From assembly GCF_026344005.1 (NCBI RefSeq), contig NZ_JAPKNH010000002.1:186001-250000 (forward strand): 64,000 bases of DNA, in the 5' to 3' direction. Below, in pieces: positions 12,939 to 31,589 of the stretch (position 1 is the stretch's first letter; each line of letters opens with the position of its first letter). The notes under the pieces are model-generated. The model had not been told where the DNA came from and made no database searches. It was given only the letters and a program-made list of their open reading frames with translations. A program made the translations under genes and the position numbers. The stretch comes from Kaistia terrae. GTDB lineage: Bacteria; Pseudomonadota; Alphaproteobacteria; Rhizobiales; Kaistiaceae.

Positions 12939-12967
12939 GTCATAATTCCACTATAGGGGATCGTCAA
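12939..12967 (-). promoter_or_regulatory. Promoter of the GMC oxidoreductase gene
   Basis: On the - strand, TTGACG (12962-12967) and TATGAC (12939-12944) are separated by exactly 17 bp, a good sigma-70-type promoter about 40 bp before the ATG at 12898. The palindrome at 12947-12960 fills the spacer, so a bound protein would block polymerase. Confidence 0.55.
12947..12960. promoter_or_regulatory. Shared 14-bp near-palindromic operator, copy 2
   Basis: TCCACTATAGGGGA, identical over all 14 bp to the site at 8846-8859, placed between the -35 and -10 hexamers of the GMC oxidoreductase promoter. Its position suggests repression. Confidence 0.6.
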
Positions 12968-12997
12968 TGCGGGGTGGCGGTTTCGTCCGAAGCCCGG

Positions 12998-13474: not shown

Positions 13475-13499
13475 GATCCGATCAAATGATCGAATTTGG
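13454..13499. promoter_or_regulatory. Two direct repeats at the Lrp start
   Basis: ATGATCGAATTTTGG at 13454-13468 and ATGATCGAATTTGG at 13486-13499 are offset by 32 bp, about three helical turns, and lie on the Lrp gene's side of the divergent 13474/13618 region. This phasing suits an Lrp-type oligomer. Confidence 0.4.
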
Positions 13500-13617
13500 T
13501 GATGCATGTCAATGAAGTCGGTGTATTTTCCGCGTTTGGAAGTTGAAATGATGGTTTGAATGACCCGTTTCGACTTTGGCTTGCGACGGGCTTCTTCCTT
13601 TCAGAAGGCGCACGGCC

Positions 13618-15096: not shown

Positions 15097-15147
15097 TGGT
15101 TGGTGGAAACTTGCTATTCATGGGTTGGGAAGGCGGGGTCTAGAGAC

Positions 15148-16029: not shown

Positions 16030-16066
16030 TCGCCTCCGAATTGTCGACGTCCCGAGCCTTCCTCCA

Positions 16067-17839: not shown

Positions 17840-18250
17840 CGGGGATGAAGAATTCCGTCCCGGTCGGGGCTCCGCCAACAAACCGCTCGTTTTGAGGTCG
17901 CAGGCCGTCGTCGGGCTGGGCCGCATTTTCGATTGAGCTACCATTCAAATGGATGTTTAAAATTATCGATTATGATAGAGCGAGGGCGCGCCCTGATTGC
18001 TCGACGGGCGCAGGGAAGGCCATCGCGCCGTTCGGTGAGGGGCGCGACGATCGCAAAATCATGGTGACAAAGTCTTTGGAGAGCGCCTGCAAGCATTCCG
18101 GCGTTACTTTGGCGGCATGGTCATTGGGACGGGGCCAAAGTTACCCTGTACGCTGGTGGCTTGGATGTCGCTGTCGGACCTTTCGAGGTTGGCGCGGGAT
18201 CGAAGCGGGATGGGAGAACGGGTGCCTTGGTCGTATCGGAAAGCATAGCT
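17840..18250. other. Leader region of the TetR gene
   Basis: About 410 nt without a supported gene. The first half contains the TetR operator and promoter at 17933-17961 in an AT-rich patch. A 102-codon frame opening at 17953 starts inside the operator and has no family resemblance, so it is not annotated. The transcript would have an unusually long leader of roughly 280 nt. Confidence 0.45.
17933..17961 (+). promoter_or_regulatory. TetR promoter with operator C
   Basis: TTGAGC (17933-17938) and TTTAAA (17956-17961) are 17 bp apart. The operator TTCAAATGGATGTTT (17944-17958) fills the spacer; its reverse complement AAACATCCATTTGAA matches the sites at 19188-19202 and 31559-31573. It implies autorepression of the TetR gene. 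Confidence 0.6.
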
Positions 18251-18916
18251 GTGGCCGGTAAGGAAGCCGACACGCGCGAGAGGCTGATCAAGGCCGCGTT
18301 GCGAGTTTTCGCCGATCGCGGCATCGCTTCGGCGACGCTGCGCGAGATCACGGTCGAAGCCGGGGCCAATGTCGCGGCGGTCAATTACTACTTCCGCTCG
18401 AAGGAGGAACTGACGCGCACCGTGCTGGAGACCTGCCTCCGCCCGATCAACGAGAATCGCCTGCGCTCGCTGGAGAAGCTGGTCGCCGAGAATGGCGAGG
18501 CGGCGATCCCGCTGGAGAGCCTGGTCGAGGCGCTGGTCCGGCCTATGGTCGAGCAGAGCCTGGATGATTATGGCGGTCGCTCGCCCGTGCGGCTTCTGCT
18601 GCAGGTCCGTGCGCTGCCGCAGCCCCTGACCAACACCATCCTCGCCAACCAGTTCGACAGCATCCACCGCCTGTTCGTCCAGGCGCTGGGCAACACGTTA
18701 CCGGAGCTGTCCCGCTCGGAAATCGGCCTGCGCTATGATTTCGCCCGTGGCGCCATCATGCAGATCCTCGGCGACCTGGATCCCGCCGCGCGCGACCTGC
18801 CGGACCTGCCGATCAAGCAGGCGCGCCTCGACAACGAGACACTGATCCGGCAGCTGGTCCACTTCATCGCCGCCGGCTTTCGCGCGCCCGCCAGCCCGTC
18901 CTTCGCCGGCGCCTGA
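18251..18916 (+). CDS. TetR/AcrR family transcriptional regulator (CerR/YbiH-like)
   Basis: About 221 aa from the GTG at 18251; a TTG at 18227 preceded by GGGAGA is a near-equal alternative, and an open frame extends to 18161. The DNA-binding domain is plain: TRERLIKAALRVFADRG, ATLREITVEAGAN, VNYYFRSKEEL. The C-terminal ligand domain (residues 80-210) resembles the CerR/YbiH type. Matching 15-bp sites lie upstream of its own gene, of the peptide-type ABC operon (19415) and of the DHDPS-family gene (31464), so it most likely represses this whole catabolic block until an inducer appears. Confidence 0.84.
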   Translation: MAGKEADTRERLIKAALRVFADRGIASATLREITVEAGANVAAVNYYFRSKEELTRTVLETCLRPINENRLRSLEKLVAENGEAAIPLESLVEALVRPMVEQSLDDYGGRSPVRLLLQVRALPQPLTNTILANQFDSIHRLFVQALGNTLPELSRSEIGLRYDFARGAIMQILGDLDPAARDLPDLPIKQARLDNETLIRQLVHFIAAGFRAPASPSFAGA

Positions 18917-19414
18917 GGCCGCTTTCACCTTCCGCGACCGTGATCGCTGACCCATCCCGCGCCTTCGGAATGGGCAGGGTGCGCCTCGACGGCTGGCAAC
19001 GCCGTGAAACCCCTCCATCGCGTTCCTAGCCGGCCGTCCCTAACTTCGCGCCAGAGGATGGCGTGAAGGCGAGGGCTTCCGCGCCCTTTCGCGCCGCCAT
19101 CGCTGTGGAACTCCATCCCTTCAGGTTGTTCGCCGGCCGTGGAGCCAGCGCGGGCTCCTGCCCGCTAAAAGCGCTTGACCAGAAACAAAACATTCGTTTG
19201 AAATGAAGGTATGAAACATATTTTTTGCTTCTGGGTCTGACTTAGGCGGCGTTTGCCTCGGGGAGGGCGAACGCAGTTGCTATTTTGCCAAGAAGAGGCC
19301 CCGCGCGATTTGCGAGGTGCCAGCCGGCAAAAGCTTCCGCGGATGCGGATGCCGGCAATGGCGGGACGGCGGTCGTCACGCTTCGGTCATGCAGTCATCA
19401 AGGGGAGTTCATTC
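18917..19414. other. Intergenic region with the transporter-operon promoter
   Basis: About 500 nt without a supported gene. The only recognised site is operator A at 19188-19202 with TTGACC at 19175-19180. An open frame runs into the binding-protein gene from 19253, but that stretch has no ribosome binding site and no signal-peptide character. Confidence 0.45.
19175..19206 (+). promoter_or_regulatory. Promoter and operator A of the peptide-type ABC operon
   Basis: TTGACC (19175-19180) lies 7 nt upstream of the operator AAACATTCGTTTGAA (19188-19202) in an AT-rich patch. The operator matches the sites at 17944-17958 and 31559-31573 at 13 or more of 15 positions. The -10 is ambiguous (TTGAAA or TGAAAT). 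Start of translation is 209 nt downstream of the operator. Confidence 0.55.
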
Positions 19415-21007
19415 ATGCGTCCAGCTAAGTTGCTACTCGGTCTCGGCGCGGCGCTCTGCGCGCTGACGTCCTTCGCCCAGGCCGAAGAGCCTGTGCGCGG
19501 TGGCAATGCGACTTTCATCATGTCGCCCGCACCGCAGATCCTGACCTCGGCGATCACGACGGCGGGCGCGGAACAGGTGGTTTCGTCGAAGATCTCCGAC
19601 AGCCTGTTCACCTATGACTACGACCTCAACCCGAAGCCGCTGCTGGCCGAGAGCTTTTCGGTCAGCGATGACGGCCTGCGCGTCACGATCAACCTGCGCA
19701 AGGGCGTGAAGTGGCATGACGGCAAGGAGTTCACCTCCGAGGACGTCGCCTTCACCACCATGGAAGTCTGGAAGGTCCTGCACGGCCGCGGCCGCACGAT
19801 CTTCGGCAACGTCACCGCCGTCGAGACGCCCGATCCCTACACCGCGATCTTCGTTCTCTCGAAGCCGTCGCCCGGCATGCTGAAGAGCCTTGCCGCCCAG
19901 CAGGCGCAAATCCTTCCCGCCCATATCTACAAGGGCACGGACATCGCCACCAACCCGGCCAATCTGAAGCCGATCGGCACTGGTCCGTTCAAGTTCGTGT
20001 CGTTCTCGCCGGGCGACAATCTCGTGCTCGAGCGCAATCCCGACTACTGGGACACCGGCAAGCCCTATCTCGACAAGCTGATCTTCCGCTTCATCCCCGA
20101 TCCGGCCACCCGCGCCTCGGCGATCGAATCCGGCGAAGCCCAGATCGCGCCGCAGAACCTGGTGCCGATGGCCGATCTGGAGCGCCTCGGCGCGACCGGC
20201 GAATTCGACATCACCACCAAGGGCTACGAGTTCCAGAACGAGATGGAGATGATCGAGTTCAACCTCGATGATCCCATCATGAAGGACAAGCGCGTCCGTC
20301 AGGCGATCGCCCATGCGATCGACCGCGACTGGATCGTCGAGAACATCTTCTTCGGCTATGGCAAGTCGGCCGAGACGCCGCTGCACCAGCAGCTGACCGA
20401 GATGTTCGACGCGAGCGGCGTGCCGCAATACGCCTTCGATCCGGAAAAGGCCAAGGCGCTGCTCGACGAGGCTGGCTACAAGCCGGACGCCAACGGCGTG
20501 CGCCTGAAGCTGACCGTCGATCCGCTGCCCTATGGCGAGCATCAGGCCAGCATCGCGGCCTATATGCGCGAAGCCTTCCGTGCGGTTGGCATCGACCTGA
20601 CCGTCCGGGCGCAGGATTTCGCCGGCTTCGTCAAGCGCGTCTACACGGATCGCGACTTCCAGTTCACCATCAATCTGCTGACGGGTGGTTCGGATCCGAC
20701 GATCGGCACGCAGCGCACCTTCTGGTCGCAGAGCTTCAAGCCGGGCGTGGGCTTCTCCAACGGCTCGCACTATGTGAGCCCCGAAATGGATAAGCTGCTC
20801 GAAACGGCCGCTTCCGAAATGGATGTCGCCAAGCGCAAGGCCGAGTATCACGAGTTCCAGAAGCTCGCGATGGAAGACCTGCCGGTGTTCCCGCTGGTCG
20901 CCGTCGAAAGCGTGACGATCGCCAGCAAGCGTCTCAAGAACCACACGATCGACGCGAACGGCACCTATAGCAACTTCGCCAACGTCTATCTGACGCCGGC
21001 CGAGTAA
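19415..21007 (+). CDS. Peptide/opine-type ABC transporter substrate-binding protein (SBP_bac_5)
   Basis: 530 aa periplasmic binding protein of the DppA/OppA family. The ATG at 19415 has AGGGGAG 7 nt upstream and opens a Sec signal peptide (MRPAKLLLGLGAALCALTSFAQA). The family pattern follows: LAESFSVSDDG, ITINLRKGVKWHDGKEF, IGTGPFKF, ERNPDYW. It captures a peptide, opine or other amino-acid derivative for the permeases at 21087 and 22088. It is the first gene of an operon running to at least 24894, and a 10-bp hairpin follows its stop. Confidence 0.88.
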   Translation: MRPAKLLLGLGAALCALTSFAQAEEPVRGGNATFIMSPAPQILTSAITTAGAEQVVSSKISDSLFTYDYDLNPKPLLAESFSVSDDGLRVTINLRKGVKWHDGKEFTSEDVAFTTMEVWKVLHGRGRTIFGNVTAVETPDPYTAIFVLSKPSPGMLKSLAAQQAQILPAHIYKGTDIATNPANLKPIGTGPFKFVSFSPGDNLVLERNPDYWDTGKPYLDKLIFRFIPDPATRASAIESGEAQIAPQNLVPMADLERLGATGEFDITTKGYEFQNEMEMIEFNLDDPIMKDKRVRQAIAHAIDRDWIVENIFFGYGKSAETPLHQQLTEMFDASGVPQYAFDPEKAKALLDEAGYKPDANGVRLKLTVDPLPYGEHQASIAAYMREAFRAVGIDLTVRAQDFAGFVKRVYTDRDFQFTINLLTGGSDPTIGTQRTFWSQSFKPGVGFSNGSHYVSPEMDKLLETAASEMDVAKRKAEYHEFQKLAMEDLPVFPLVAVESVTIASKRLKNHTIDANGTYSNFANVYLTPAE

Positions 21008-21015
21008 CAATCCGG

Positions 21016-21048
21016 CCTCGGCCGGTCGCCCCGCGCGGCCGGCCGAGG
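21016..21048 (+). promoter_or_regulatory. Intercistronic hairpin after the binding-protein gene
   Basis: Perfect 10-bp GC stem (CCTCGGCCGG at 21016-21025 with 21039-21048) and a 13-nt loop, no T-tract, just downstream of the binding-protein stop. It parallels the hairpin at 1317-1347 and probably keeps binding-protein mRNA more abundant than permease mRNA. Confidence 0.55.
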
Positions 21049-21086
21049 GTTCCCGATCCGCACCGCCATCAGGAGACGCGTCCCCC

Positions 21087-22070
21087 TTGAACCGGCATCT
21101 GTTGAACTATCTCGGGTGGCGGCTGCTCCAGTCCCTGGTGGTGATCACCATCGTCGTGATCGGCAGCTTCATGCTGCTGCACCTCGTCCCCGGCGACATG
21201 GTCGACGTTCTCGGTGGCCAGCGCGGCGACATGGATGCCGAGCTGATGGCGACGCTCCGCACCCGCTACGGCCTCGACCAGCCGATGCTGGTCCAACTCT
21301 TCAATTACGTGACCGGAGTGCTGCAGGGCGATCTCGGCTATTCCTTCCGCAATTCGAATACGGTGCTGTCGCTGGTGTTGCAGCGCCTGCCGGCGACCAT
21401 CCTGCTGGTGGTCTGCTCGGTCGCCGTCGCAGTGTTCATCGGTACGCTGGCCGGCGTCTTCGCCGCCCGCCATGTCCACCGCCCGATCGATGTCATCATC
21501 TCGATGGTGGTGCTGGTCTTCTACGCCACGCCCGTCTTCATGACCGGCCTCGGCCTCGTCATCATCTTTTCCGTCAAGCTCAAGCTGCTGCCGGTCGGCG
21601 GCCTGATCACGCCCGGCGTCGACATGACGACGCTGCAGCTGGTCGGCGACGTGGCCCAGCATCTGATCCTGCCGGTGCTGTCGCTGTCGCTGTTCTACAT
21701 CGCCATCTATGCGCGGCTGGCCCGCGCCTCGATGCTGCAGGTTCTGAACCAGGATTATATCCGCACCGCCTATGCCAAGGGCCTCGGCACCAGCCATGTC
21801 ATCATCGGCCATGCGCTGCGCAACGCGCTGCTGCCCGTCGTCACCATGGTGGGGTTGCAGATCGCCGAACTGTTCGGCGGCGCGGTGCTGACCGAGACGA
21901 TCTTCAGCCTGCCCGGCGTCGGTCGGCTCGCCTATGACTCGGTATTCGAGCGTGATTATCCGCTGATCCTCGGCGTGCTGCTGGTCTGCTCCTTCGTCAT
22001 CATCCTCGTCAATCTGATCATCGACCTGATCTACACGCTGCTCGATCCGCGCGTCGAAGTCAGTCGCTGA
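21087..22070 (+). CDS. ABC transporter permease (DppB/OppB family)
   Basis: 327 aa inner-membrane permease. The TTG start has AGGAG 11 nt upstream. The N-terminus (LLNYLGWRLLQSL) and following membrane segment with HLVPGD are typical of DppB. The coupling motif for the ATPases is ARASMLQVLNQDYIRTAYAKGL. About six membrane segments. It pairs with the DppC-type permease whose gene begins 17 nt downstream, forming the channel of the imported amino-acid derivative system. Confidence 0.9.
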   Translation: MNRHLLNYLGWRLLQSLVVITIVVIGSFMLLHLVPGDMVDVLGGQRGDMDAELMATLRTRYGLDQPMLVQLFNYVTGVLQGDLGYSFRNSNTVLSLVLQRLPATILLVVCSVAVAVFIGTLAGVFAARHVHRPIDVIISMVVLVFYATPVFMTGLGLVIIFSVKLKLLPVGGLITPGVDMTTLQLVGDVAQHLILPVLSLSLFYIAIYARLARASMLQVLNQDYIRTAYAKGLGTSHVIIGHALRNALLPVVTMVGLQIAELFGGAVLTETIFSLPGVGRLAYDSVFERDYPLILGVLLVCSFVIILVNLIIDLIYTLLDPRVEVSR

Positions 22071-22087
22071 AACGCAAGGGGATCACC

Positions 22088-22912
22088 ATGCTTCGCCGCG
22101 TCCTGCTTTCCCCCGCCGGTTTCGTCGGCCTGCTCCTGTTGCTGATGATCGTCGGCATGGCGCTTTCGGCCGGCTACTTCTTCCCGAAGGGGCCGTGGGC
22201 GCTGGTGGCGCGTCCCTATATGTGGCCGGGCCAGCGGCCGGGGCTGCTGTTCGGCACGGATTCGCTCGGCCGCGATATCCTCGCGGCGATCTTCTACGGT
22301 TCGCGCGTATCGCTGATCGTCGGTCTCGTCGCCACCGTCTGCGCGCTCGCCGTCGGCATCACGGTCGGCTCGATCGCCGGCTATTTCGGTCGCGGCGTCG
22401 ACGCCGTGCTGATGCGCATCACCGATGCCTTCCAGACCATTCCGGGCTTCCTGTTTGCCATCGTGCTGGTGTCGATCCTGTCACCCTCGGTGACGAACAT
22501 CGTCATCGCCATCGCCGTCGTTTCCTGGCCGCCGGTGGCGCGGCTGACGCGCGCCGAGGTGCTGCGCGTACGCGAGACGGAATATGTCCAGTCTTGCAAG
22601 ATCATCGGCATGTCGACGCCGCGCATCATCCTGACCCAGGTGCTGCCCAACAGCCTGTCGCCGGTGATCGTCGTCGCCGCCGTGCTGGTCGCCACCGCCA
22701 TCATCACCGAGGCGGGCCTTTCCTTCCTCGGTCTCGGCGATCCCAATGTCATGAGTTGGGGCACGCTGATCAATGTCGGCCGGCCGTCGATCCGCAGCAC
22801 CTGGTTCATCTGCGTCCTGCCGGGCCTGTTCGTCGTCATGACCGTGCTGGCGCTGAACCTGCTCGGCGACGCGATCAACGATGCCCTCAACCCGCATTTC
22901 AGGAAGCGATAG
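22088..22912 (+). CDS. ABC transporter permease (DppC/OppC family)
   Basis: 274 aa. The family landmark FGTDSLGRDIL is at about residues 56-66, and the ATPase-coupling loop VLRVRETEYVQSCKIIG is in the second half, ending in the usual LNPHFRK tail. Five to six membrane segments. An AAGGGG site precedes the ATG. Its stop codon abuts the start of the first ATPase gene, so the genes are coupled. It forms a heterodimer with the permease at 21087. Confidence 0.9.
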   Translation: MLRRVLLSPAGFVGLLLLLMIVGMALSAGYFFPKGPWALVARPYMWPGQRPGLLFGTDSLGRDILAAIFYGSRVSLIVGLVATVCALAVGITVGSIAGYFGRGVDAVLMRITDAFQTIPGFLFAIVLVSILSPSVTNIVIAIAVVSWPPVARLTRAEVLRVRETEYVQSCKIIGMSTPRIILTQVLPNSLSPVIVVAAVLVATAIITEAGLSFLGLGDPNVMSWGTLINVGRPSIRSTWFICVLPGLFVVMTVLALNLLGDAINDALNPHFRKR

Positions 22913-23926
22913 ATGACGCCCAGCGCTTCCGCTCCGAAGGGGGCGCTCCTCGATGTCGAGGGGCTCTCCATCCTCATCAAGGACAAGCGCGGCGACGTGC
23001 GCGCCGTCGACGATGTCAGCTTTTCCGTCGCTGCCGGCGAAACGCTGGCCATCGTCGGCGAATCCGGCGCCGGCAAGTCGCTCACCGCTCTGGCCCTGAT
23101 GCGGCTGCTGCCGAAGACGCTCGGCGTCGAGGCGAAGCGCATCACGCTGGCGGGCCAAGACCTGACTTCTCCCTCCGAGCTCGACATCCGCAAGGTGCGC
23201 GGCTCGGTGATGGCGATGATCTTCCAGGATCCGCTTTCTGCGCTCAATCCGGTGCTGACGGTAGAACGCCAGCTGGTCGAGGCGATCCGCCTGCACGAGA
23301 CGATCTCCAGGACGGACGCACGGGCGCGCGCGCTGGAACTGCTCGACATGGTGCGCATCCCGGCAGCCAGCGCCCGGCTCGGCGAATATCCGCACCGGCT
23401 TTCCGGCGGCATGCGCCAGCGCGTCATGATCGCCATGGCGCTGGCCGGTCGGCCGAAGCTGATCCTCGCCGACGAGCCGACCACGGCGCTCGACGTCACC
23501 ATTTCCGGCCAGATCCTCGACCTCCTGAAGGAACTGCAGCGCGATCTCGGCCTCGGCATGCTGTTCATCACGCATGATTTGCATGTCGTCCGCTCGGTCG
23601 CGCACCGGGTGGCGGTGATGTATTCCGGCCGCGTGGTCGAGAGCGGCAGCGTGGCGGACGTGTTCGAGCGGCCGCGCCATCCCTACACGGAGGGCCTGAT
23701 CCAGGCCCGCCCGCATGGCAGCTTCGTCACCGACGGCCATCGGCTGCGCGAGATCGCCGGCACCGTGCCGGTTCCCGCCGCCCGGCCGCCCGGCTGCGCC
23801 TTCGAGCCGCGCTGCGTCCGCGCTGAGGCCGATTGCCGGCAGGTTGTGCCGCCGCTGGTGCGGGAGGCGGGCACCCCCCGGTCGCTTGCCTGCTTCCATC
23901 CGCTGCAGCAGGAGCAGTACGCATGA
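22913..23926 (+). CDS. ABC transporter ATP-binding protein (DppD/OppD family)
   Basis: 337 aa. Walker A GESGAGKS, signature LSGGMRQR, Walker B LILADEPT and the switch His in FITHD are all present. The C-terminal oligopeptide-transport extension contains the Cys-rich PGCAFEPRC...DC pattern seen in family members with an Fe-S cluster. It starts on the base after the previous stop, and its own end overlaps the next ATPase gene by 4 nt (ATGA). Drives import with the ATPase at 23923. Confidence 0.9.
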   Translation: MTPSASAPKGALLDVEGLSILIKDKRGDVRAVDDVSFSVAAGETLAIVGESGAGKSLTALALMRLLPKTLGVEAKRITLAGQDLTSPSELDIRKVRGSVMAMIFQDPLSALNPVLTVERQLVEAIRLHETISRTDARARALELLDMVRIPAASARLGEYPHRLSGGMRQRVMIAMALAGRPKLILADEPTTALDVTISGQILDLLKELQRDLGLGMLFITHDLHVVRSVAHRVAVMYSGRVVESGSVADVFERPRHPYTEGLIQARPHGSFVTDGHRLREIAGTVPVPAARPPGCAFEPRCVRAEADCRQVVPPLVREAGTPRSLACFHPLQQEQYA

Positions 23927-24894
23927 GCCCGCGCCTGCAGATCGATGAGATGGTGGTCGAGCACCGTACCAAGCGCGGCGTCGTGCATGCGGTCGCCGGT
24001 GTCAGCCTGGAACTCGCCGCCGGCGAGACGCTGGGGCTGGTCGGCGAATCCGGCTGCGGCAAGTCGAGCCTCGCCCGCGCCATCGTCGGCCTCAATACGC
24101 CCAAATCCGGCGCCATCCGCATCGATGGCCGCGCCACCGATCCGCGCCGTCGCGGCGCGCAGGCGCGCGACATCCAGATGGTGTTCCAGGACCCCTATGG
24201 CTCGCTCAATCCGCGCATGAGCGTGCGCGAGCTGGTCGAGGAGCCGCTGTCGGTGCACCGCCTCGGCAACCGCGCCGAACGCGTTGCCACGGCCAAGGCG
24301 CTGCTCGAGCGGGTCGGCATCTCGGCCGCCATGCATGACCGCCTGCCGCACCAGCTTTCGGGCGGCCAGCGCCAGCGCGTCGGCATTGCCCGCGCCATGG
24401 CGCTGGAGCCGAAGATCGTCATCTGCGACGAGCCCGTCTCGGCGCTCGACGTCTCGGTCCAGGCGCAGGTGCTGAACCTGCTGCTCGATCTGCAGAAGGA
24501 GCAGGAACTGACCTTCCTGTTCATCTCGCACGACCTCGAAGTGGTGCGCTATGTCTCGCACCGGATCGCGGTCATGTATCTCGGCGTCATCGTGGAGATC
24601 GGCCCTGCCGAAGGCGTCTGGTCGCTGCCGTTGCACCCTTATACCCGGGCGCTGATGCAGACGGCGGGCGATGCCGAGCGGGTCGCGGCGACCGGGCCGA
24701 TGGTGACGCTTTCCAGCGAACTGCCGAATCCGCTTAATCCGCCGAGCGGATGTAGGTTCCGGACAAGATGCCCCCTTGCCATCGAGGTCTGCGCCCGCGA
24801 TGTTCCGGCGCTCGAGGACTTCGGCGACGGTCATCGCGTTGCCTGTCATCGCGCCGGCGAATGGGCGTCCACCGCGACTCCGGCCCATGCCTGA
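23923..24894 (+). CDS. ABC transporter ATP-binding protein (DppF/OppF family)
   Basis: 323 aa from the ATG overlapping the previous stop. Walker A GESGCGKS, signature LSGGQRQR, Walker B IVICDEPVSALD, and FISHD. The C-terminal extension has SGCRFRTRCPLA...C, the same cysteine pattern as its partner. It completes a five-gene importer (binding protein, two permeases, two ATPases). The molybdoenzyme gene follows after 61 nt and may be co-transcribed. Confidence 0.9.
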   Translation: MSPRLQIDEMVVEHRTKRGVVHAVAGVSLELAAGETLGLVGESGCGKSSLARAIVGLNTPKSGAIRIDGRATDPRRRGAQARDIQMVFQDPYGSLNPRMSVRELVEEPLSVHRLGNRAERVATAKALLERVGISAAMHDRLPHQLSGGQRQRVGIARAMALEPKIVICDEPVSALDVSVQAQVLNLLLDLQKEQELTFLFISHDLEVVRYVSHRIAVMYLGVIVEIGPAEGVWSLPLHPYTRALMQTAGDAERVAATGPMVTLSSELPNPLNPPSGCRFRTRCPLAIEVCARDVPALEDFGDGHRVACHRAGEWASTATPAHA

Positions 24895-24955
24895 CTGCGG
24901 ATTCCGGGTCCAGCGGGACGACCGGGCCTGACGACCGAATTGCGAGGGTGAAACC

Positions 24956-27286
24956 ATGACCACGACCAGCCGCCAATTCCAGTCCCTGGCCCATTGGGGC
25001 GCCTTCACGGCCCATGTCGAGGACGGCAGGCTGGTCGGCGTCTCGCCCTTCGCCGAGGACCCGCAGCCGAGCCCGCTGATCGAGGCGTGGCCCGAGATGG
25101 TCTATGCTGAGAACCGCATCCTGAAGCCGTCGATCCGGCGCGGCTGGCTGGAAACGGTCGGGCGCGGCCTGCCGCATCCGGGGTTTGGCCGTGGCGACGA
25201 CACCTTCGTCGAGGTGTCGTGGGATGAAGCGCTCGGCCATGTGACGCGCGAACTGGAGCGCGTGCGCACCCAGCATGGTAACGCCTCGATCTTCGGCGGT
25301 TCCTATGGCTGGTCGAGCGCCGGCCGCCTGCACCATGCCCGCACGTTGATCCATCGCTTCATGGCCGCGATCGGCGGCTGCACCGGCCAGGTCACCAATT
25401 ACAGCTATGGCGCGGCGATGCGGCTGCTGCCGCATGTGCTCGGCGACATGGCGGCCGTGGCCGGTCCCGTCACCGACTGGCCGGCCATTCTCGAGCATTG
25501 CGAGCGCTTCGTGGCGATCGGCGGCATTGCCGGCAAGAACTGGCAGATCCAGTCGGGCGGCGCCGGGCTGCATCCCTATGGCGAATTCATGAAGCAGGCA
25601 GCCGCGAGCGGCGTCAGCTTCGTCAATGTCTCGCCGCTCAAGACCGATACCGCCCATGTGATCGAGGCCGAATGGATCCAGATCCGCCCCGGCACCGACA
25701 TGGCGCTGATCCTCGCGACCGCATGGCTGGTCCACGCGCGCGGCAAGACGGACATGGATTTCGTCAATCGCTACTGCGTCGGCTTCGATCGTTTCCTCGC
25801 CTATCTGCAGGGCGCCGATGACGGCGTCGTCAAGGATCCGGCCTGGGCGTCCGCGATCACCGGCCTCTCCGCCGAGGCGATCACCGAGTTCGCCGAGAGC
25901 CTGTTCGACCGCCGCGTCATGCTGACGGCGGCCTGGTCGCTGCAGCGCGCCGAGCATGGCGAGCAGCCCTATTGGGGCCTGGTCGCGCTTGCCGCGATGC
26001 TGGGCCAGATCGGCCTGCCGGGTGGCGGCGTCGCCTTCGGCTACGGTTCCATGAACGGCATGGGCAGCCCGCTCTATGAACTGCCGATCTCCGGCCTCGC
26101 CGTGCCGAAGGTTCCGGGCGAGCTGAAGATCCCCGTCGCGCGCATCACCGACCTGCTGCTGCGGCCAGGCGAGCCCTGCGAGTTCGACGGCAAGGTGTTC
26201 CCCTATCCGGATACCAAGCTGGTCTACTGGGCCGGCGGCAATCCGTTCCACCACCACCAGGACCTGTTCCGCCTGCGCGAGGCTTTCCAGCGGCCGGATA
26301 CCATTGTCGTGCACGAGCCCTGGTGGACGGCGACGGCCCGCCATGCCGACATCGTGCTGCCGGCGACGACGCCGCTCGAGCGCAACGACATCGGCGGTTC
26401 CTCGCGCGATCCGTACCTCTTCGCCATGCACAAGGCGATCGAGCCGGTCGGCGAGGCGAGGGGCGATTTCGAGATTTTTGGCGCGCTGGCCGATCGCATG
26501 GGCGCGGGCGAGGCTTTCCACGAGAACCGCAGCGAGTTCGAGTGGCTGCGCATCATCTATGATCGCTTCAGCGAGGCGATGTCGAAGCGCAACTTCAATC
26601 CGCCGGATTTCGACACCTTCTGGGAAGCCGGCCATGTCCGCATCCCCGATCCGGCCACCGGCTTCACGCTCTACAAGGATTTCAGGCAGGATCCGGTCGC
26701 TCATCCGCTGAAGACGCCGTCCGGCAAGGTCGAGATCTTTTCCGAGGCAGTGGCGGCTTTCGGCTACGAGGAATGCCCGGGCCTGCCGGTCTGGCGCGCC
26801 CCGTCCGAATGGCTCGGGTCGGAGCTGGCGACGCGCTATCCGCTGCACATGATCTCCAACCAGCCGGAAGACAAGCTGCACGGCCAGATGGACGCCAGCC
26901 GCCATAGCCGCAACAACAAGGTTCGCGAGCGCGCCGGCCTGATCATGAATCCGGCCGATGCGGCCGCGCGCGGTCTCGCCGAGGGCGACATCGTCCGCGT
27001 CTTCAATGATCGCGGCGTCTCGCTGGCCGGCCTTCGGATTTCCGAGAAGATCATGCCGGGCGTCGTCTGCCTGCCGACCGGCGCCACCTTCGATCCGATC
27101 TCGGACGGCAAGGGCGGGATGATCGAGAACCACGGCAATCCGAACGCCTTGACCAAGGACATCGGCACCTCGCGCCTCGGCCAGGGCCCGAGCGCCCAGA
27201 CCTGCCTCGTCGAGGTCGTGCGCCACGAAACCGACGCCGCGCCGATCTCGGTTCTCACCCAGCCGCCGATCGAAGCGGCGGCGTAG
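24956..27286 (+). CDS. Molybdopterin-dependent oxidoreductase, biotin sulfoxide reductase (BisC/TorA) family
   Basis: 776 aa member of the DMSO reductase superfamily. It lacks a Tat signal and the N-terminal [4Fe-4S] cysteines, as in cytoplasmic BisC. The molybdenum ligand is probably Ser121 in YGWSSAGRLHH. The molybdopterin-binding regions NYSYGAA, GGNPFHHHQD and the C-terminal NQPEDKLHGQMD are conserved. Typical substrates are S- or N-oxides. Placed behind a peptide-type importer and under the same TetR region, it may reduce an oxidised amino-acid derivative such as a sulfoxide or N-oxide; that is inference. Confidence 0.82.
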   Translation: MTTTSRQFQSLAHWGAFTAHVEDGRLVGVSPFAEDPQPSPLIEAWPEMVYAENRILKPSIRRGWLETVGRGLPHPGFGRGDDTFVEVSWDEALGHVTRELERVRTQHGNASIFGGSYGWSSAGRLHHARTLIHRFMAAIGGCTGQVTNYSYGAAMRLLPHVLGDMAAVAGPVTDWPAILEHCERFVAIGGIAGKNWQIQSGGAGLHPYGEFMKQAAASGVSFVNVSPLKTDTAHVIEAEWIQIRPGTDMALILATAWLVHARGKTDMDFVNRYCVGFDRFLAYLQGADDGVVKDPAWASAITGLSAEAITEFAESLFDRRVMLTAAWSLQRAEHGEQPYWGLVALAAMLGQIGLPGGGVAFGYGSMNGMGSPLYELPISGLAVPKVPGELKIPVARITDLLLRPGEPCEFDGKVFPYPDTKLVYWAGGNPFHHHQDLFRLREAFQRPDTIVVHEPWWTATARHADIVLPATTPLERNDIGGSSRDPYLFAMHKAIEPVGEARGDFEIFGALADRMGAGEAFHENRSEFEWLRIIYDRFSEAMSKRNFNPPDFDTFWEAGHVRIPDPATGFTLYKDFRQDPVAHPLKTPSGKVEIFSEAVAAFGYEECPGLPVWRAPSEWLGSELATRYPLHMISNQPEDKLHGQMDASRHSRNNKVRERAGLIMNPADAAARGLAEGDIVRVFNDRGVSLAGLRISEKIMPGVVCLPTGATFDPISDGKGGMIENHGNPNALTKDIGTSRLGQGPSAQTCLVEVVRHETDAAPISVLTQPPIEAAA

Positions 27287-27584
27287 GTCAGACCCTCACC
27301 CCAACCCTCTCCCGCAAGCGGGCGAGGGGGCGTTGGCGCCCGCTGCCTCAGCCTTACTGAATCAGCCCACTCCACCATCATCCTGAGGTGCTTCGCGAGA
27401 GCGAAGCCTCGAAGGAGGGTTCAGCGGAGCACGGATGCTTACCGACGCCGCCGCATCTCCACTGACCCGCGCCCGCGTCTTTCAACACGGGGGATCCCTG
27501 GACCCTCCTTCGAGGCCCGGCTTTGCCGGGCACCTCAGGATGATGAGGGAAGCATGCGGCGACGTTCAAAGACGCAGAGTCAGA
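27287..27584. other. Convergent intergenic region filled with inverted repeats
   Basis: About 300 nt with no gene. It starts with a short palindromic stretch (CCTCTCCCGCAAGCGGGCGAGG, about 27307-27329) and is then filled by the family-2 element at 27374-27546. Both operons of the TetR block end here, so it probably works as a two-way terminator. Confidence 0.55.
27374..27546. repeat. Family-2 long inverted repeat (ATCATCCTGAGGTGC...)
   Basis: Left end CATCATCCTGAGGTGC and right end GCACCTCAGGATGATG are inverted; inside each lies a smaller hairpin (CTTCGCGAGAGCGAAG on the left, CCCGGCTTTGCCGGG on the right) and GAAGGAGGGT/ACCCTCCTTC. Related elements are at 54783-54919 and 59989-60096. It is a non-coding mosaic element of the type dispersed in rhizobial genomes. 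Confidence 0.75.
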
Positions 27585-28988
27585 TCAAGCGTCCGAGCCT
27601 GTATGGCCCTGGCCGCTGTGGCTGGCGGCGAGTTCGGCGACCGTGATCGGCCGGCCGGGTGTGCGCAGGCTCGGTCGGGAAAAATCGGTGACGGCGGCGC
27701 CCAGTTCCTCGGCCAGCACGCTCACCAGTGACAGCGTGCATTGCCGCCCCTGGCAGGGACCCATGCCGCAGCGCGTCGCCGCCTTGACCTGCCGCGTGCC
27801 CGTCGCGCCCTGCGCGATCGCGGCGCGGACGCGCGAAACCGGCACTTCCTCGCAGCGACAGAGCAACGCCGAGCCATCCGCCTTCGCCGCCGACAGCGTC
27901 GGTGCATAGAGCGCGTCGACGAAGCGGCGCGCGGCCAGCCGTCTCGATCTCTCGGCAAGCACAGGGGCTGCAGCTTCGGCATGCGCCTCTGCCGTCAGCA
28001 TCGCCAGTTCGCGCGCCACGTCGAGCGCGGCGAGCCGGCCCGTCAGCGTCGCCAGATAGCCGCCGGAAATAGCCGCCGCATCGCCGGCGATCCAGATGCC
28101 GCCAACCGAGGCCCGGACCTCGGCGGTCGTCACCATCGCATAGGCCTGCGCGTCGGCGTTCCAGCGGCTGGCGCAGCCGAACGAGACCGCGAGCTGGTCG
28201 TTCGGCACGACGCCGTCATGCAGCGCCACCATGCCGGCTTCAAGCCGGTGCTCGCGGCCTTCCGCGCGGAACGCCAGTCCCTCGGCGCGGTCGGTTCCGA
28301 GCACGCGAAGATCCGTGGCGTGGCGGAAGATCGGGATTTTCGCCATGCGGATGCGGGCGAGCAGCTTCATGCCGCTTATCGCCAGCGCGGGCTCGCCGAT
28401 CAGCCCCGGCGCCTTCGTCAGGCTGGCGCGCCAGCGCCCGCGCGGCGTGGTGTCGATGATCGCCAGCGGCGGCGCGCCGGCCTTGGTGAGTTGCAGCGCC
28501 GTCAGCACCAACAGCGGGCCGCTGCCGGCCAGCACATAGCGCCCGGACGGCACGGCGGCGCTGCCCTTCAGCAGCGATTGCAGCGCGCCGACGGTGACGA
28601 CGCCGGGCAGGGTGTGGCCGGGCAGCACGACCGGGCGCTCCATCGATCCGGTGGCGAGAATGACGGCCTTTGCCTGCAACCGGCAGGTCTGGCCCTCGAC
28701 GCCATAGACCAGCGTCTCGCCATCGCGTGCCCAGACGCTGGCGCCCCGGACATGCCGCGCGCCGGACTGCTGGAAGGCGCTCGCCAGCGGCGCGCCCCAG
28801 ATCTCGTAGTGGACGCGTCGAGCGCCCGTGATGCCGCGCAGAATCTGGCCGCCGATCGTCGGCTGGTCGTCGAGGACCGTGACGGCCAGGCCATGCCGGC
28901 GCGCCTCGATCGCGGCCGCCATGCCGGCGGGACCCGCGCCGATGATCGCGACATCCGTCGCCGGGTCTACGCTCGCAAATTCCGGCAT
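27585..28988 (-). CDS. FAD/NAD(P)-binding oxidoreductase with BFD-like [2Fe-2S] domain (HcnB/OoxA/LhpE type)
   Basis: 467 aa from the ATG at 28988. The N-terminal FAD loop is VAIIGAGPAGMAAA, and a second nucleotide-binding region lies at about residues 150-180. The C-terminal 90 residues carry a BFD-like cluster site: CRCEEV and then CGMGPCQGRQC. This is the middle subunit type of three-part flavin dehydrogenases acting on D-amino acids, D-hydroxyproline, opines or glycine (HcnABC). It overlaps the 2Fe-2S subunit gene by 22 nt, and the DAO-type subunit precedes that. Confidence 0.83.
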   Translation of the reverse strand: MPEFASVDPATDVAIIGAGPAGMAAAIEARRHGLAVTVLDDQPTIGGQILRGITGARRVHYEIWGAPLASAFQQSGARHVRGASVWARDGETLVYGVEGQTCRLQAKAVILATGSMERPVVLPGHTLPGVVTVGALQSLLKGSAAVPSGRYVLAGSGPLLVLTALQLTKAGAPPLAIIDTTPRGRWRASLTKAPGLIGEPALAISGMKLLARIRMAKIPIFRHATDLRVLGTDRAEGLAFRAEGREHRLEAGMVALHDGVVPNDQLAVSFGCASRWNADAQAYAMVTTAEVRASVGGIWIAGDAAAISGGYLATLTGRLAALDVARELAMLTAEAHAEAAAPVLAERSRRLAARRFVDALYAPTLSAAKADGSALLCRCEEVPVSRVRAAIAQGATGTRQVKAATRCGMGPCQGRQCTLSLVSVLAEELGAAVTDFSRPSLRTPGRPITVAELAASHSGQGHTGSDA

Positions 28989-29245
28989 ATCACCATTCCG
29001 TCGCGCACCGGGGTCAGGCACGCCTGCACGTTGGTCCGTCCGTCTAGTTCGACGGTGCATTCGAAGCAGGCGCCCATCAGGCAATAGGGCGCGCGCGGCC
29101 GCCCGGTCGGCGTCTGCCGCGTCGGCACGAGATCGTGGCGCATCAGGCAGGCGGCGACCGTCTCGCCGGGATGGGCGTCGAAGGGCCGCCCATCGACCAT
29201 GACGGTCAGGCGCGCCTCGGCGGGATCAAGAAGCGAGCGCAGCAT
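28967..29245 (-). CDS. (2Fe-2S)-binding subunit of the D-amino-acid/opine-type dehydrogenase (HcnA/LhpF type)
   Basis: 92 aa. A small ferredoxin-fold subunit with the cluster pattern CLMGACFEC...C (fourth cysteine in QACLTP), and an upstream HPGETVAACL that is usual for HcnA-type proteins. It starts inside the end of the DAO-type gene (20-nt overlap) and ends inside the start of the FAD subunit gene (22-nt overlap). Such overlaps mean the three subunits are translated together as a heteromeric enzyme. Confidence 0.83.
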   Translation of the reverse strand: MLRSLLDPAEARLTVMVDGRPFDAHPGETVAACLMRHDLVPTRQTPTGRPRAPYCLMGACFECTVELDGRTNVQACLTPVRDGMVICRNLRA

Positions 29246-30332
29246 CGAAGCGCCTTGAGGAGAGGGTGGCGAGCTCGCCGGGTAGCGCATCGCGGGCAAT
29301 GGCCGGGCCGACGATCCCGGCATGGGCGGCTGCCAGCGTGATGCCGGAATGGCAGGCGACGGCGAAGGCGCCGGGGCAGGTCTCGGAGCGGGCATAGATC
29401 GGCATGCCGTCGGCCGGCATGACGCGGATCGCGCCCCAGCTGCGCAGTACCCTCGCCGAGGCCAGGAAGGGAAACTCGCGGATGGCGCGCTGCGCGTGGC
29501 TGGCCAGGATCGGCAGCGTGGTGCCGGGCGTCACGACGTGATCCTCGTGGCTGTTGCCGAACATGACGCTGCCGGCGCGGGCCTGACGGGTGGTCGGCGT
29601 CGCATGGGCGATCGAGGGCGGCAGCCGCTCGGTGACGACGATCTGGCCGCGCACCGGCTTCAGCGGAACGCGCATGCCGGCGGTCGCGGCGAGCGGCTGC
29701 GTCGCGAGGCCGGCGGCGATGACGACGCGCTCGGCCGGATAACGGTTTTCCGCGCAGAAGACGGTCAATTGCGATCCGGCCATGCCGATCGACAGCGCCT
29801 TGTCGTTGCGGAGGATTTCGACGCCGAGCGATCGCGCCTGAACCGCCAGCGCCTGGTTCAGAAACAGCGGGTTGGCATGGCCGTCGGCCGGGCACCAGCT
29901 GGCGCCGATCACATCCGGCCCGACCTTCGGCAGCCGTTCGCGGATGAAGTCGACATCGACCATGGCGACGTCGTCGGGAATGCCCGGCTGGCCTGAGAGC
30001 TTGGCGACCATGCTGGCTCGCGCTTCAAGCTCCTCTTCCGACAGGCAGAGGCTGAAGCCGCCGCGGCGGTCATATTCCGGATCGATGCCGGTCGCGGCCA
30101 GCAGGCTTTCGGCGAATTGCGGCCAGAGGCTTGCCGAGCGTCGGCTCCATTGCGCATAGGGCGGGTGGTTGGCGCCCTTGCCCTGCACCCAGACGAGGCC
30201 GGCATTGCCATAGGAGGCGCGCGGCTCTTGGTCGGAGCCGTCGAGGATCACGACGGAAAGCCCGGTGCGCGCCATGCCGACCGCGAGCGAAAGCCCGACA
30301 ATGCCGCCGCCGATGACGATGGCGCGCTTCAA
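29226..30332 (-). CDS. FAD-dependent oxidoreductase, DAO family (HcnC/LhpB-type catalytic subunit)
   Basis: 368 aa. The N-terminal FAD loop is AIVIGGGIVGLSLA, and the family segment KPVRGQIVV lies in the centre. A TTG start preceded by GGGGGA fits the N-terminus exactly. In HcnABC, opine oxidase and P. aeruginosa D-hydroxyproline dehydrogenase, this subunit oxidises the amine and the other two pass on electrons. It is co-transcribed with the DHDPS-family gene upstream, which in hydroxyproline catabolism deaminates the product. Substrate otherwise unproved. Confidence 0.82.
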   Translation of the reverse strand: MKRAIVIGGGIVGLSLAVGMARTGLSVVILDGSDQEPRASYGNAGLVWVQGKGANHPPYAQWSRRSASLWPQFAESLLAATGIDPEYDRRGGFSLCLSEEELEARASMVAKLSGQPGIPDDVAMVDVDFIRERLPKVGPDVIGASWCPADGHANPLFLNQALAVQARSLGVEILRNDKALSIGMAGSQLTVFCAENRYPAERVVIAAGLATQPLAATAGMRVPLKPVRGQIVVTERLPPSIAHATPTTRQARAGSVMFGNSHEDHVVTPGTTLPILASHAQRAIREFPFLASARVLRSWGAIRVMPADGMPIYARSETCPGAFAVACHSGITLAAAHAGIVGPAIARDALPGELATLSSRRFDAALAS

Positions 30333-30525
30333 GCCTTGATCCCCCGAAAGCGGGGCATCTGGCCAAGGCTCGTACCGGAAACCGTGATCACGGCCCGCGC
30401 TCCGTCGCTAGAACAATGTCGGTGTTGTCGGCTGCGCCACGAGTTGGCCTTCAGTCCGTTATGGCAAAGGCGCAGCGGGGAAGACGGCCGCGGGAGGTCG
30501 GCCGCCTTCCTGCCTTGGGAGGACG

Positions 30526-31464
30526 TTACTCGGCAGCGATCCGGGTCGCGGCGTTGAGGCCGTACTGGTCGAGCAGGCCGAGCGTGCGCATGATCTCGAC
30601 GCCCTTGTCGAGCGCCGGCCCCTTGAGGCCGGTGAGCGGACGACGCAGGTCGCCGGCAGGCAGCCCGACGGCTTTCATCAGCGACTTCACCGCGACCGGG
30701 TTGATGGCCGAATAGGTGTAGTGCAGCAGCGGCAGCAGGCGCATGTAGCTCTCGCGGAAAGCGAAGCCGTCCGTATCGGCCGTCCACGGCTTCGACAGCG
30801 CAGCCATTTCGGCCGGCGCGAGATTGCCCGTCATGTTGGCGGTGCCGTGGCCGCCGAGCGCCATGGTCGGCACGACCAGGCCCAGATTGGGCGAGTCGCA
30901 GCACATGATGGCGACGTCGGGATTGCCGGCGATGACCTGCGCCACCTGACCGACGCGGCCGGTCGATTCCTTGTGCACCACGAAGTTCGGGTGCTTGAAC
31001 AGGCGCAGCAGCGCCTCGTGGCCGAGATCGGTTTTTACGCGCGGCGGGTTGTTGTAGATGCCCATCGGCAGTTCGGTCGACTCGGCGATATCGAGGAAAT
31101 ACTGCTCGATGTCGGCTTCCGAGGCGCAGATATAGGCAGGCGCCGCGAGGATCGCGCCGTCGGCGCCTTCGCCCTTGGCGAAGCGCACGAGGTCGATCGA
31201 GGTTTTGGTGTCGCCGCCGGTGCAGCCGTAGAACAGCTTCATGCCGCCGGTCTTCATCTTCGCCGTCTTCGAGATGATGTCGCGGCGCTCTTCCAGGCTG
31301 AGCATCGAGATCTCGCCGGTCGAGCCGAGGATGAGCACGGCGGCGGTGCCGTTGTCTTCCTGGAACTTCAGCAGATCCTCGAACGCCTTGAAGTCGACCG
31401 TTCCGTCTTCGTTGAACGGAGTGATCAGGGCGACGAACGACCCTTCGATACGCATCTTGCTCAT
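30526..31464 (-). CDS. Dihydrodipicolinate synthase family protein (class I aldolase/deaminase)
   Basis: 312 aa, standard length for DHDPS/N-acetylneuraminate lyase enzymes. The carboxylate-binding loop is GSTGE (Ser48-Thr49), the catalytic tyrosine is Tyr137 in IYNNP and the Schiff-base lysine is Lys165 in VVHKES. GGAG precedes the ATG. It is first in the - strand operon, ahead of the three dehydrogenase subunits. The same arrangement in hydroxyproline degradation includes pyrroline-4-hydroxy-2-carboxylate deaminase, a member of this family, so a catabolic rather than lysine-biosynthetic role is likely. Confidence 0.82.
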   Translation of the reverse strand: MSKMRIEGSFVALITPFNEDGTVDFKAFEDLLKFQEDNGTAAVLILGSTGEISMLSLEERRDIISKTAKMKTGGMKLFYGCTGGDTKTSIDLVRFAKGEGADGAILAAPAYICASEADIEQYFLDIAESTELPMGIYNNPPRVKTDLGHEALLRLFKHPNFVVHKESTGRVGQVAQVIAGNPDVAIMCCDSPNLGLVVPTMALGGHGTANMTGNLAPAEMAALSKPWTADTDGFAFRESYMRLLPLLHYTYSAINPVAVKSLMKAVGLPAGDLRRPLTGLKGPALDKGVEIMRTLGLLDQYGLNAATRIAAE

Positions 31465-31555
31465 TCAGTCATCTCCGAAAGCCATTTGCGGCCGTCTCGC
31501 CACGGAGGCGCGCCACCCATCCAAGGAACCCGGTTCAAGCAACTCGGTCTTCGGA

Positions 31556-31589
31556 TTCAAACATGCATTTGAAATGACTGTTCGTCAAC
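31556..31589 (-). promoter_or_regulatory. Promoter and operator B of the DHDPS-family operon
   Basis: On the - strand, TTGACG (31584-31589) precedes the operator whose + strand reads AAACATGCATTTGAA (31559-31573); the wider TTCAAA-n6-TTTGAA (31556-31573) has perfect 6-bp arms. It matches the sites at 17944-17958 and 19188-19202. Distance to the ATG is about 95 nt. Confidence 0.6.

Follow-up and report, generated by a model that had tools for sequence, protein, structure and literature searches.

The import and breakdown genes in this DNA are very probably under the control of an adjacent TetR-type repressor, which would act through matching, conserved predicted operators. Three such sites, S1, S2, and S3, lie in the window (the whole 64-kb stretch that was analyzed), and the features to which we refer are as follows.

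13546 to 13570, + strand: weak site, tentatively a fourth operator, ahead of a SufS-like/persulfide dioxygenase/SulP gene run
17933 to 17938, + strand: TTGAGC, candidate -35 of the S1 promoter, also found ahead of the homologous site in G017 and G018
17946 to 17971, + strand: S1, predicted operator upstream of tetR, boxes CAAATGGATGTTT (8/8) and AAAATTATCGATT (7/8)
18227 to 18916, + strand: TetR-family regulator, PsrA-like (TetR_N and TetR_C_30), TTG start likely
19175 to 19180, + strand: TTGACC, candidate -35 of the importer operon promoter
19187 to 19225, + strand: S2, predicted operator, three tandem boxes (8/8, 7/8, and 7/8)
19415 to 21007, + strand: periplasmic substrate-binding protein, SBP_bac_5
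21087 to 22070, + strand: Opp/Dpp-type permease B
22088 to 22912, + strand: Opp/Dpp-type permease C
22913 to 23926, + strand: Opp/Dpp-type ATPase D
23833 to 24894, + strand: Opp/Dpp-type ATPase F, with the actual start probably 3' of 23833
24956 to 27286, + strand: molybdenum S/N-oxide reductase, BisC/DMSOR group
27585 to 28988, - strand: NAD(P)/FAD oxidoreductase subunit (Pyr_redox_2 and Fer2_BFD)
28967 to 29245, - strand: small 2Fe-2S subunit (Fer2_4)
29226 to 30332, - strand: DAO-fold FAD subunit, amino-acid/opine dehydrogenase type
30526 to 31464, - strand: DHDPS-family enzyme (PF00701), first gene of the - operon
31558 to 31583, - strand: S3, predicted operator, two boxes (8/8 and 7/8), reading CAAACATGCATTT GAAATGACTGTTC on the + strand
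31583 to 31588, - strand: TTGACG, candidate -35 of the DHDPS operon, sharing one base with S3
17944 to 17958 (-), 19188 to 19202 (+), and 31559 to 31573 (+): exact matches to AAACATNCRTTTGAA, at S1, S2, and S3, respectively

The sequence-only reading had proposed the 15-mer AAACATNCRTTTGAA as an operator that occurs at these three places and nowhere else in the window. The three sites are real, with 3 exact matches in the window against 0.00 expected from 100 shuffles. Because AAACATNCRTTTGAA had been drawn from S1 to S3 themselves, we added a pattern-independent test on the three 300-bp upstream regions, both strands, in which the best common 15-mer scores 40, while 200 shuffles have a mean of 32.8 (sd 1.0) and a maximum of 37, so that the shared motif beats every one of the 200. 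When up to three mismatches are allowed, the window contains 6 matches versus 2.31 expected, and the three additional ones are at 19198 and 31569, which are the other halves of S2 and S3, and at 13543. "Nowhere else" holds within the window but not genome-wide, since AAACATNCRTTTGAA has 4 exact matches in the 5.59-Mb genome (and 25 matches with up to two mismatches, versus 7 for the reversed control). The fourth exact match, which is within a reading frame that we take from its translation to be lptF-like, was rejected as lacking regulon context, as was a one-mismatch site on contig C32.

The 15-mer is only part of a longer and more regular predicted operator, which is seen in relatives as a tandem of PsrA-type dyads AAAY-N4-RTTT repeated every 13 bp, with two boxes at S1, two at S3, and three at S2. 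Across 22 operators and offsets of 8 to 19, the mean score of the second box is 7.0/8 at offset 13 and does not exceed 4.0 at any of the 11 others, a test that is partly circular because most of these operators were found via motifs containing part of the second box. A matrix made from 11 sites of other genomes only ranks S2 (40.8) and S3 (39.8) top in the window, and its symmetric version scores S3 at 36.8 and S2 at 35.7, where 100 shuffled windows reach at most 22.3. Two other descriptions of the operator were discarded. The 18-bp dyad TTCAAA-N6-TTTGAA has a left half that is not kept in relatives. The single 23-bp dyad AACAnnCATTTGAAATGnnTGTT is specific (all matches are in the cluster for G014, G017, G018, and G020, with one stray each in G000 and G031), yet it misses S1, with 5 mismatches, and the sites of G343 and G117, finding no match at all in the latter genome, and it was therefore replaced by the tandem boxes.

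We searched nine whole genomes for two-box places, and 19 of the 26 places found, in eight genomes with matches, are inside the cluster (the reversed control gives 0 to 1 per strand). This is the case for every place in G014, G017, and G018 (3/3 each), G020 (1/1), and G343 (2/2), for 2/3 in G117 and 2/4 in G031, and for 3/7 in the window genome. The refined operator is nearly restricted to the cluster in most genomes searched, but the window's own genome is an exception. Its 4 out-of-cluster places are read as chance and were rejected, as was a 3-mismatch place at C1:104745. The only pathway-family matches in the stretches fetched around these places are an ALDH homologue (42%, L181, ~2.7 kb away), which is a generic ALDH, and an Lrp homologue (31%, L184, ~3.6 kb away). 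A two-box site in G022 was also rejected; it adjoins genes read as ribosomal proteins and has no pathway gene. Nine congeneric genomes without a TetR match contain 5 scattered two-box places, and no pathway genes are beside them in the short loci checked.

The operator at the DHDPS promoter is present, at varying strength, in seven further genomes (G014, G017, G018, G020, G031, G117, and G343), which represent the family groups f1, f5, and f80 of the genome search, and in Nitratireductor indicus, which was covered as locus L029, where a GMC gene is cut at the locus end. The operator at the importer promoter is present in G014, G017, and G018, which belong to the window's genus, and in N. indicus, where the third box of S2 is 6/8. 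The genomes from the order and class levels were drawn as samples, so that absence among them is not complete absence, and many of the 80 BisC-context loci end early at contig ends. Random occurrence throughout the genome and a lack of conservation in orthologous promoters had been named as findings that would count against the regulon reading; both were checked, and neither check went against it.

The TTGAnC hexamers that had been described upstream of the sites are at 17933 to 17938, 19175 to 19180, and 31583 to 31588 (-). G014, G017, G018, and N. indicus retain the S2 hexamer (N. indicus as TTGACG); these four and G020 also retain the S3 hexamer, but G031 does not. A -10 hexamer could not be confirmed: no -10 element is recognizable, and a scan of the promoter stretches for strict sigma-70 promoters gave 0 promoter-like sites, with none at S1, S2, or S3. 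The operon layout is as first read, with a + operon from 19415 to 27286 and a - operon from 31464 to 27585 that converge at 27287 to 27584.

S1 is located ~256 bp 5' of the likely tetR start (TTG at 18227) and is the weakest of the three sites; its scores of 16.2/15.2 are matched by ~4 to 7 of 100 shuffled windows and are not significant alone. In the window S1 lies ahead of tetR itself, in the sister species G017 and G018 the homologous site heads an operon that ends with tetR, and in the sister species G014 and G020 no homologue of S1 was seen. Though less likely than not, S1 may be a remnant, in which case it would be the promoter operator left over from an ALDH-GMC-tetR operon, here without its first two genes, rather than a functioning operator of tetR. 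In favor of this are the order in G017 and G018, where the homologous site and TTGAGC precede ALDH, GMC, and then tetR, and the lack of the ALDH and GMC genes between S1 and tetR in the window. Against it, the window S1 keeps good boxes (8/8 and 7/8) and a -35-like hexamer, and a remnant could still be functional, the two being mutually compatible. The site at 13546 to 13570 is identical in G017 and G018 save for the last base, but it is lost in G014 and G020, and its score of 12.6 is no better than usual, given that the best site in a shuffled window averages 11.1. For these two reasons we did not accept it as a certain fourth operator and kept it only as tentative.

In the window, the TetR gene adjoins its predicted targets, and the site goes with the regulator, in that TetR relatives with 43 to 45% identity carry the operator in other gene settings. 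A Ketogulonicigenium TetR (43%), which played no part in deriving the operator model, adjoins hydantoinase and SBP-importer genes. Its 16.7-kb locus contains three both-strand two-box places, each of them intergenic, a number reached by 0/100 shuffles. A triple box lies upstream of the G312 homologue (43%), and one lies ~100 bp past the 3' end of the TetR gene in G223 (45%). No both-strand place was found in 15 loci of more distant TetRs, which represent fourteen genes because L118 and L113 carry the same gene; 13 of these loci are only 3.2 to 3.6 kb, and three of them have a one-strand place. Locus L180 of N. galegae, in which a TetR gene (38%) lies next to a DHDPS gene, does not contain the site.

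In 2fbq, the best PDB match, the counterpart of the putative recognition helix GANVAAVNYYFRSK is the similar GVNLAAVNYHFGSK. The PDB table names 2fbq "probable transcriptional regulator", and we take it to be P. aeruginosa PsrA. The G014 row of the TetR comparison, translated in a wrong frame, was disregarded. The NCBIfam PsrA model, a Vibrio-named equivalog, gives 84 bits versus a cut-off of 300, and the protein is therefore not filed as PsrA. It is like Pseudomonas PsrA in its best PDB match, similar recognition helix, and AAAC-N4-GTTT-type site, but its predicted targets are local catabolic genes and its boxes are in a 13-bp tandem. The published PsrA site is C/GAAAC-N2-4-GTTTG/C, and binding of PsrA to its own promoter has been reported (PMC3510223, PMC13104628). 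The AAAY-N4-RTTT boxes come close to this site, but at some positions they have A where it has G, and T where it has C. DarR, also of the TetR family, sits on overlapping palindromes as a dimer of dimers (PMC10636190), but the box sequence in the window differs and up to three boxes occur in one 39-bp run.

The site type and the TetR relatives bear on whether some other regulator binds these sites, for example, one of two Lrp-type proteins (7.5 to 13.5 kb), with the TetR gene a bystander. We consider this very unlikely. The window does have two Lrp/AsnC genes, and the DHDPS-BisC pair adjoins an Lrp gene in several Betaproteobacterial loci; however, the motif is missing from the scanned Betaproteobacterial loci with an Lrp gene (L034, L043, and L166), while TetR homologues in different neighborhoods do carry it, and the box is of the kind published for PsrA, a TetR-family regulator (PMC3510223, PMC13104628).

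The sequence shows the sites and their tandem layout; it also shows that they are conserved, that in most of the genomes searched they are nearly restricted to the cluster, and that they occur next to genes of related TetRs elsewhere. Binding, dimer number, repression rather than activation, and an inducer are inferred. Taken as a whole, we are confident in the proposal that the TetR protein (18227 to 18916) binds the tandem dyads at S1 to S3 and blocks transcription until it is released by a ligand. The protein would bind AAAY-N4-RTTT dyads in a 13-bp repeat at three promoters, its own (S1), that of the importer/molybdoenzyme operon (S2), and that of the DHDPS/dehydrogenase operon (S3). Neighboring dimers, two at S1 and S3 and three at S2, would sit beside the -35 hexamer and block transcription, and the TetR protein would be released by a ligand that is probably either the substrate brought in by the importer or an early metabolite. 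At S1, S2, and S3, the boxes start adjacent to the -35-like hexamers or a short way downstream of them, a position that is usual for repressor sites and that makes it improbable that the TetR protein mainly activates, or does both, rather than simply repressing. In favor of activation, PsrA, a relative with a similar site, is described as an activator of rpoS and also as a repressor (PMC13104628, PMC3510223). As for the extent of the predicted regulon, the conserved, near-cluster-confined operators support the earlier claim that it comprises the importer, the molybdoenzyme, the three-subunit dehydrogenase, and the DHDPS-family enzyme.

Ser150, Tyr117, and Trp119 of the BisC-like protein align with DMSOR Ser147, Tyr114, and Trp116 in the 1eu1 alignment, Ser147 being, we assume, the Mo ligand, and no Tat-type leader was seen in the protein. 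It matches TIGR00509 over nearly the full length with 906.3 bits, below the curated cut-off of 1017.55. The window protein has the conserved Mo-ligand Ser, Tyr, and Trp positions of the BisC/DMSO-TMAO reductase group, but its gene is embedded in an importer and lyase cluster. Similarly, the DHDPS-family enzyme shares PF00701 with the DapA family and comes near TIGR00674 (DapA), with 194.4 bits against a cut-off of 206.15, but is encoded in an apparently catabolic operon. The S/N-oxide reductase gene recurs beside a DHDPS-family gene in other bacteria, and the importers and C-S lyases that go with this pair vary between them. ALDH, GMC oxidoreductase, and racemase-family genes are in the locus of some relatives and are missing from the window locus. 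C-S lyases or persulfide dioxygenase genes occur near the cluster or in relatives.

Based on the S/N-oxide reductase, the DHDPS-family enzyme, the three-subunit amino-acid-type dehydrogenase, and the C-S lyases/persulfide dioxygenase, the gene content suggests catabolism of a sulfoxide-bearing amino-acid-like compound. The enzyme set presumably also resembles those of hydroxyproline and opine pathways, and the cluster might be a variant of such a route, in which an imino or amino acid is oxidized by the three-subunit dehydrogenase, with the DHDPS-family enzyme serving as a deaminase or lyase. The three-subunit FAD/2Fe-2S/NAD(P)-FAD enzyme beside a DHDPS-family enzyme is consistent with this, as is the semialdehyde-type ALDH in relatives. 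Such a route is not known to need an S/N-oxide reductase, however, whereas this gene keeps recurring with the DHDPS-family gene in other bacteria. In addition, no epimerase of the proline-racemase type was identified among the cluster proteins examined, and the G020 locus has no importer or three-subunit enzyme, yet keeps TetR, BisC, and DHDPS. We regard the hydroxyproline/opine route as unlikely. A search of CC-licensed PMC papers found nothing on point for this gene set, and we do not claim that it is unpublished. To extend the sulfoxide reading speculatively, and with more doubt than belief, the PsrA-like TetR branch may use phased dyad arrays (13-bp period, two to three boxes) as a shared operator grammar over differing amino-acid-type catabolic islands; the one in the window would serve a previously undescribed pathway with import of a sulfoxide amino-acid-like compound, cytoplasmic BisC-type reduction, splitting aided by the DHDPS-family enzyme, and exit of sulfur via the neighboring desulfurase-like, persulfide dioxygenase, and SulP genes.

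With exact predicted operator positions, the catabolic block becomes a testable regulon, and, since both an operator and its regulator are now proposed, a screen for the inducer is feasible. A recognizable operator for this PsrA-like TetR branch also allows target finding elsewhere. The recurring pair of DHDPS-family and S/N-oxide-reductase genes points to a pathway; should this pathway act on a sulfoxide amino acid, these molybdenum reductases would form a branch with a catabolic role.

Domain and family assignments match the gene content given in the sequence-only reading (importer, molybdoenzyme, three-subunit dehydrogenase and DHDPS-family enzyme):

18227-18916 (+), TetR gene
19415-27286 (+), + operon: family-5 solute-binding protein, two permeases, two ATPases and a BisC/DMSOR-group molybdenum enzyme
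31464-27585 (-), - operon: DHDPS-family enzyme, DAO-fold FAD subunit, 2Fe-2S subunit and NAD(P)/FAD subunit

The regulator carries TetR_N and TetR_C_30 domains, matches 2fbq best among structures, and reaches 84 bits against an NCBIfam PsrA model (cut-off, 300). In the molybdenum enzyme, the residues equivalent to DMSOR Ser147, Tyr114 and Trp116 are conserved; Tyr together with Trp is described in PMC5122715 as a mark of enzymes that reduce S-oxides besides N-oxides. Because no Tat-type leader was seen at its N terminus, this enzyme is likely cytoplasmic. Between the converging operons, nested inverted repeats at 27371-27550 (arms of 21 and 19 nt) may be a repeat element or serve as a bidirectional terminator.

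As first reported, the 15-mer AAACATnCrTTTGAA has exact matches in the window only at S1 (upstream of tetR), S2 (+ operon) and S3 (- operon), with 0.00 expected by chance. Since this pattern was derived from these very sites, we place the weight on a pattern-independent test, in which the best 15-mer common to the three 300-bp upstream regions scored 40, against 200 dinucleotide shuffles that averaged 32.8 and peaked at 37. The whole genome contains four exact matches, a single match at one mismatch and 20 at two mismatches; the reversed control pattern gave 7 in total. The fourth exact match, within an lptF-like reading frame, and the one-mismatch match, adjoining a LysR-like gene, are read as chance. 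The three sites thus stand, but the 15-mer falls short of the operator: aligned promoters of relatives give longer operators built of AAAY-N4-RTTT boxes with a period of 13 bp.

Boxes of the three operators
S1, two boxes: CAAATGGATGTTT AAAATTATCGATT
S2, three boxes: AAAACATTCGTTT GAAATGAAGGTAT GAAACATATTTTT
S3, two boxes: CAAACATGCATTT GAAATGACTGTTC

Across 22 operators, a second box placed at offset 13 matches on average at 7.0 of its 8 positions, and none of the other 11 offsets tested exceeds 4.0; the test is partly circular because the motifs used to find most of the operators include part of the second box.

Of 13 other genus genomes searched, 4 have TetR orthologues (80 to 91% identity); two genomes of another family have homologues of 65% identity. 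The stretches fetched from three Kaistia genomes (G014, G017 and G018) contain both operons in full, as does that from Nitratireductor indicus, where the stretch has no TetR gene; in a fourth Kaistia genome, G020, TetR, BisC and DHDPS are all that is kept of the set. When the window is scored with a matrix from 11 sites of other genomes, the top places are S2 (40.8) and S3 (39.8), followed by their reverse strands and then S1 (15.3). With the symmetric matrix, S3 (36.8) and S2 (35.7) exceed the best of 100 shuffled windows (22.3), while S1 scores 16.2 or 15.2 depending on register, values reached by about 4 to 7 of 100 shuffles. We also searched nine whole genomes for two boxes 13 bp apart (at most one mismatch, distinct places counted); eight had matches, and 19 of the 26 places lie inside the cluster.

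Two-box places inside the cluster/all places
Window genome, 3/7
G014, 3/3
G017, 3/3
G018, 3/3
G020, 1/1
G031, 2/4
G117, 2/3
G343, 2/2

The ninth genome, G312, had no match at this threshold; its sites have two mismatches. Nine genus genomes without a TetR match contain five scattered places, and no pathway protein matched in the short loci around them. G014 has one more two-box site (L117 5486-5511), lying between its DHDPS and DAO genes, which suggests an internal regulated promoter.

In G017 and G018, an S1 homologue that shares the TTGAGC precedes an operon comprising ALDH and GMC oxidoreductase genes, with tetR following; no S1 was seen in G014 and G020. S1 now lies immediately before tetR in the window because ALDH and GMC are missing there. 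G017, G018 and N. indicus also carry a racemase-family gene, situated between DHDPS and DAO, which the window lacks at that place. All three steps may still be available through distant relatives (ALDH, 52%; GMC, 42 to 45%; racemase family, 31 to 34%) at 8.0-12.9 kb, beside two Lrp-type genes. The block at 7547-17839, upstream of the cluster, holds these Lrp-type, Asp/Glu-racemase-family, SSADH-like ALDH and GMC oxidoreductase genes together with a SufS-like PLP enzyme, a Blh-type persulfide dioxygenase (553 bits; cut-off, 625) and a SulP transporter. A 781-bp probe from this block, reaching from the Lrp gene to where the SufS-like gene begins, gave strong matches in the five genus genomes that carry TetR and in one incomplete MAG; the remaining eight showed weak, short matches or none. 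A weak two-box site at 13546-13570, unremarkable by score alone, persists in G017 and G018 and has been lost from G014 and G020; through this site, the sulfur genes may also be tied to TetR.

A close DHDPS relative occurs in 9 of 80 BisC-context loci, many of the 80 being truncated. On Bartonella and Neorhizobium plasmids the DHDPS/BisC-type pair comes with a TTT importer, and in several Betaproteobacterial loci, most of which also have an Lrp gene, a cystathionine beta-lyase-family gene adjoins it (the one tested is above the TIGR01324 cut-off). G343 has TetR, DHDPS, beta-lyase-family, GMC, ALDH, racemase-family and TRAP-importer genes. The DHDPS/BisC recurrence, the beta-lyase-family neighbors and the sulfur genes of the window together suggest that the substrate would be a sulfoxide-bearing, amino-acid-like compound; the main rival is a hydroxyproline- or opine-like route. 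Nothing on point about this gene set was found in openly licensed PMC papers.

Three lines of evidence point to TetR as the protein that would bind the boxes. The boxes are close to the PsrA-type site C/GAAAC-N2-4-GTTTG/C described in PMC3510223 and PMC13104628, some positions having A in place of G or T in place of C. The TetR recognition helix, GANVAAVNYYFRSK, is similar to that of 2fbq, GVNLAAVNYHFGSK. The box array also accompanies TetR homologues of 43 to 45% identity in other gene neighborhoods. A Ketogulonicigenium vulgare plasmid locus (L179; 43% TetR), which had no part in deriving the box model, shows both-strand places at 2796, 7894 and 8820, three in 16.7 kb and every one intergenic:

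upstream of a gamma-glutamyltransferase-family gene
between a divergent oxidoreductase gene and tetR
upstream of hydantoinase B

This TetR lies among hydantoinase/oxoprolinase and SBP-importer genes, and we predict a second, different regulon of the same TetR branch. In G312 a triple box lies upstream of the TetR gene itself, and in G223 one place lies ~100 bp past the TetR gene's 3' end; for each of these three loci, none of 100 shuffles came up to the observed count. Among more distant TetRs, fifteen loci (13 of only 3.2 to 3.6 kb) lack any both-strand place, and three of the fifteen show a one-strand place; in 79 BisC-context loci (1.40 Mb), both-strand places number three altogether. Counting against TetR as the binder, a Neorhizobium galegae TetR (38%) adjoining a DHDPS gene (L180) has no such place. 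On the N. galegae VafX2 plasmid (L164 9051-9683), the match to the TetR homologue upstream of DHDPS is split into three pieces, and on each of three other plasmids of this species one match covers 96% of the query.

We consider it very probable that TetR binds and represses these promoters. Its dimers would sit side by side on the boxes, adjoining the -35-like hexamers, until a pathway compound frees the promoters. DarR, as described in PMC10636190, offers a TetR-family precedent by analogy, a dimer of dimers on overlapping palindromes. A sigma-70 scan of the promoter stretches found no strict sigma-70 promoter at S1, S2 or S3. TetR may, less probably, activate instead of repress, PsrA being described as both activator and repressor in PMC13104628 and PMC3510223. 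The originally proposed reading of a TetR-repressed regulon is well supported by the conserved sites and by the cluster bias of two-box places. Judged from sequence, the system is a local TetR regulon of a familiar kind, and what is unusual is its tandem operator.
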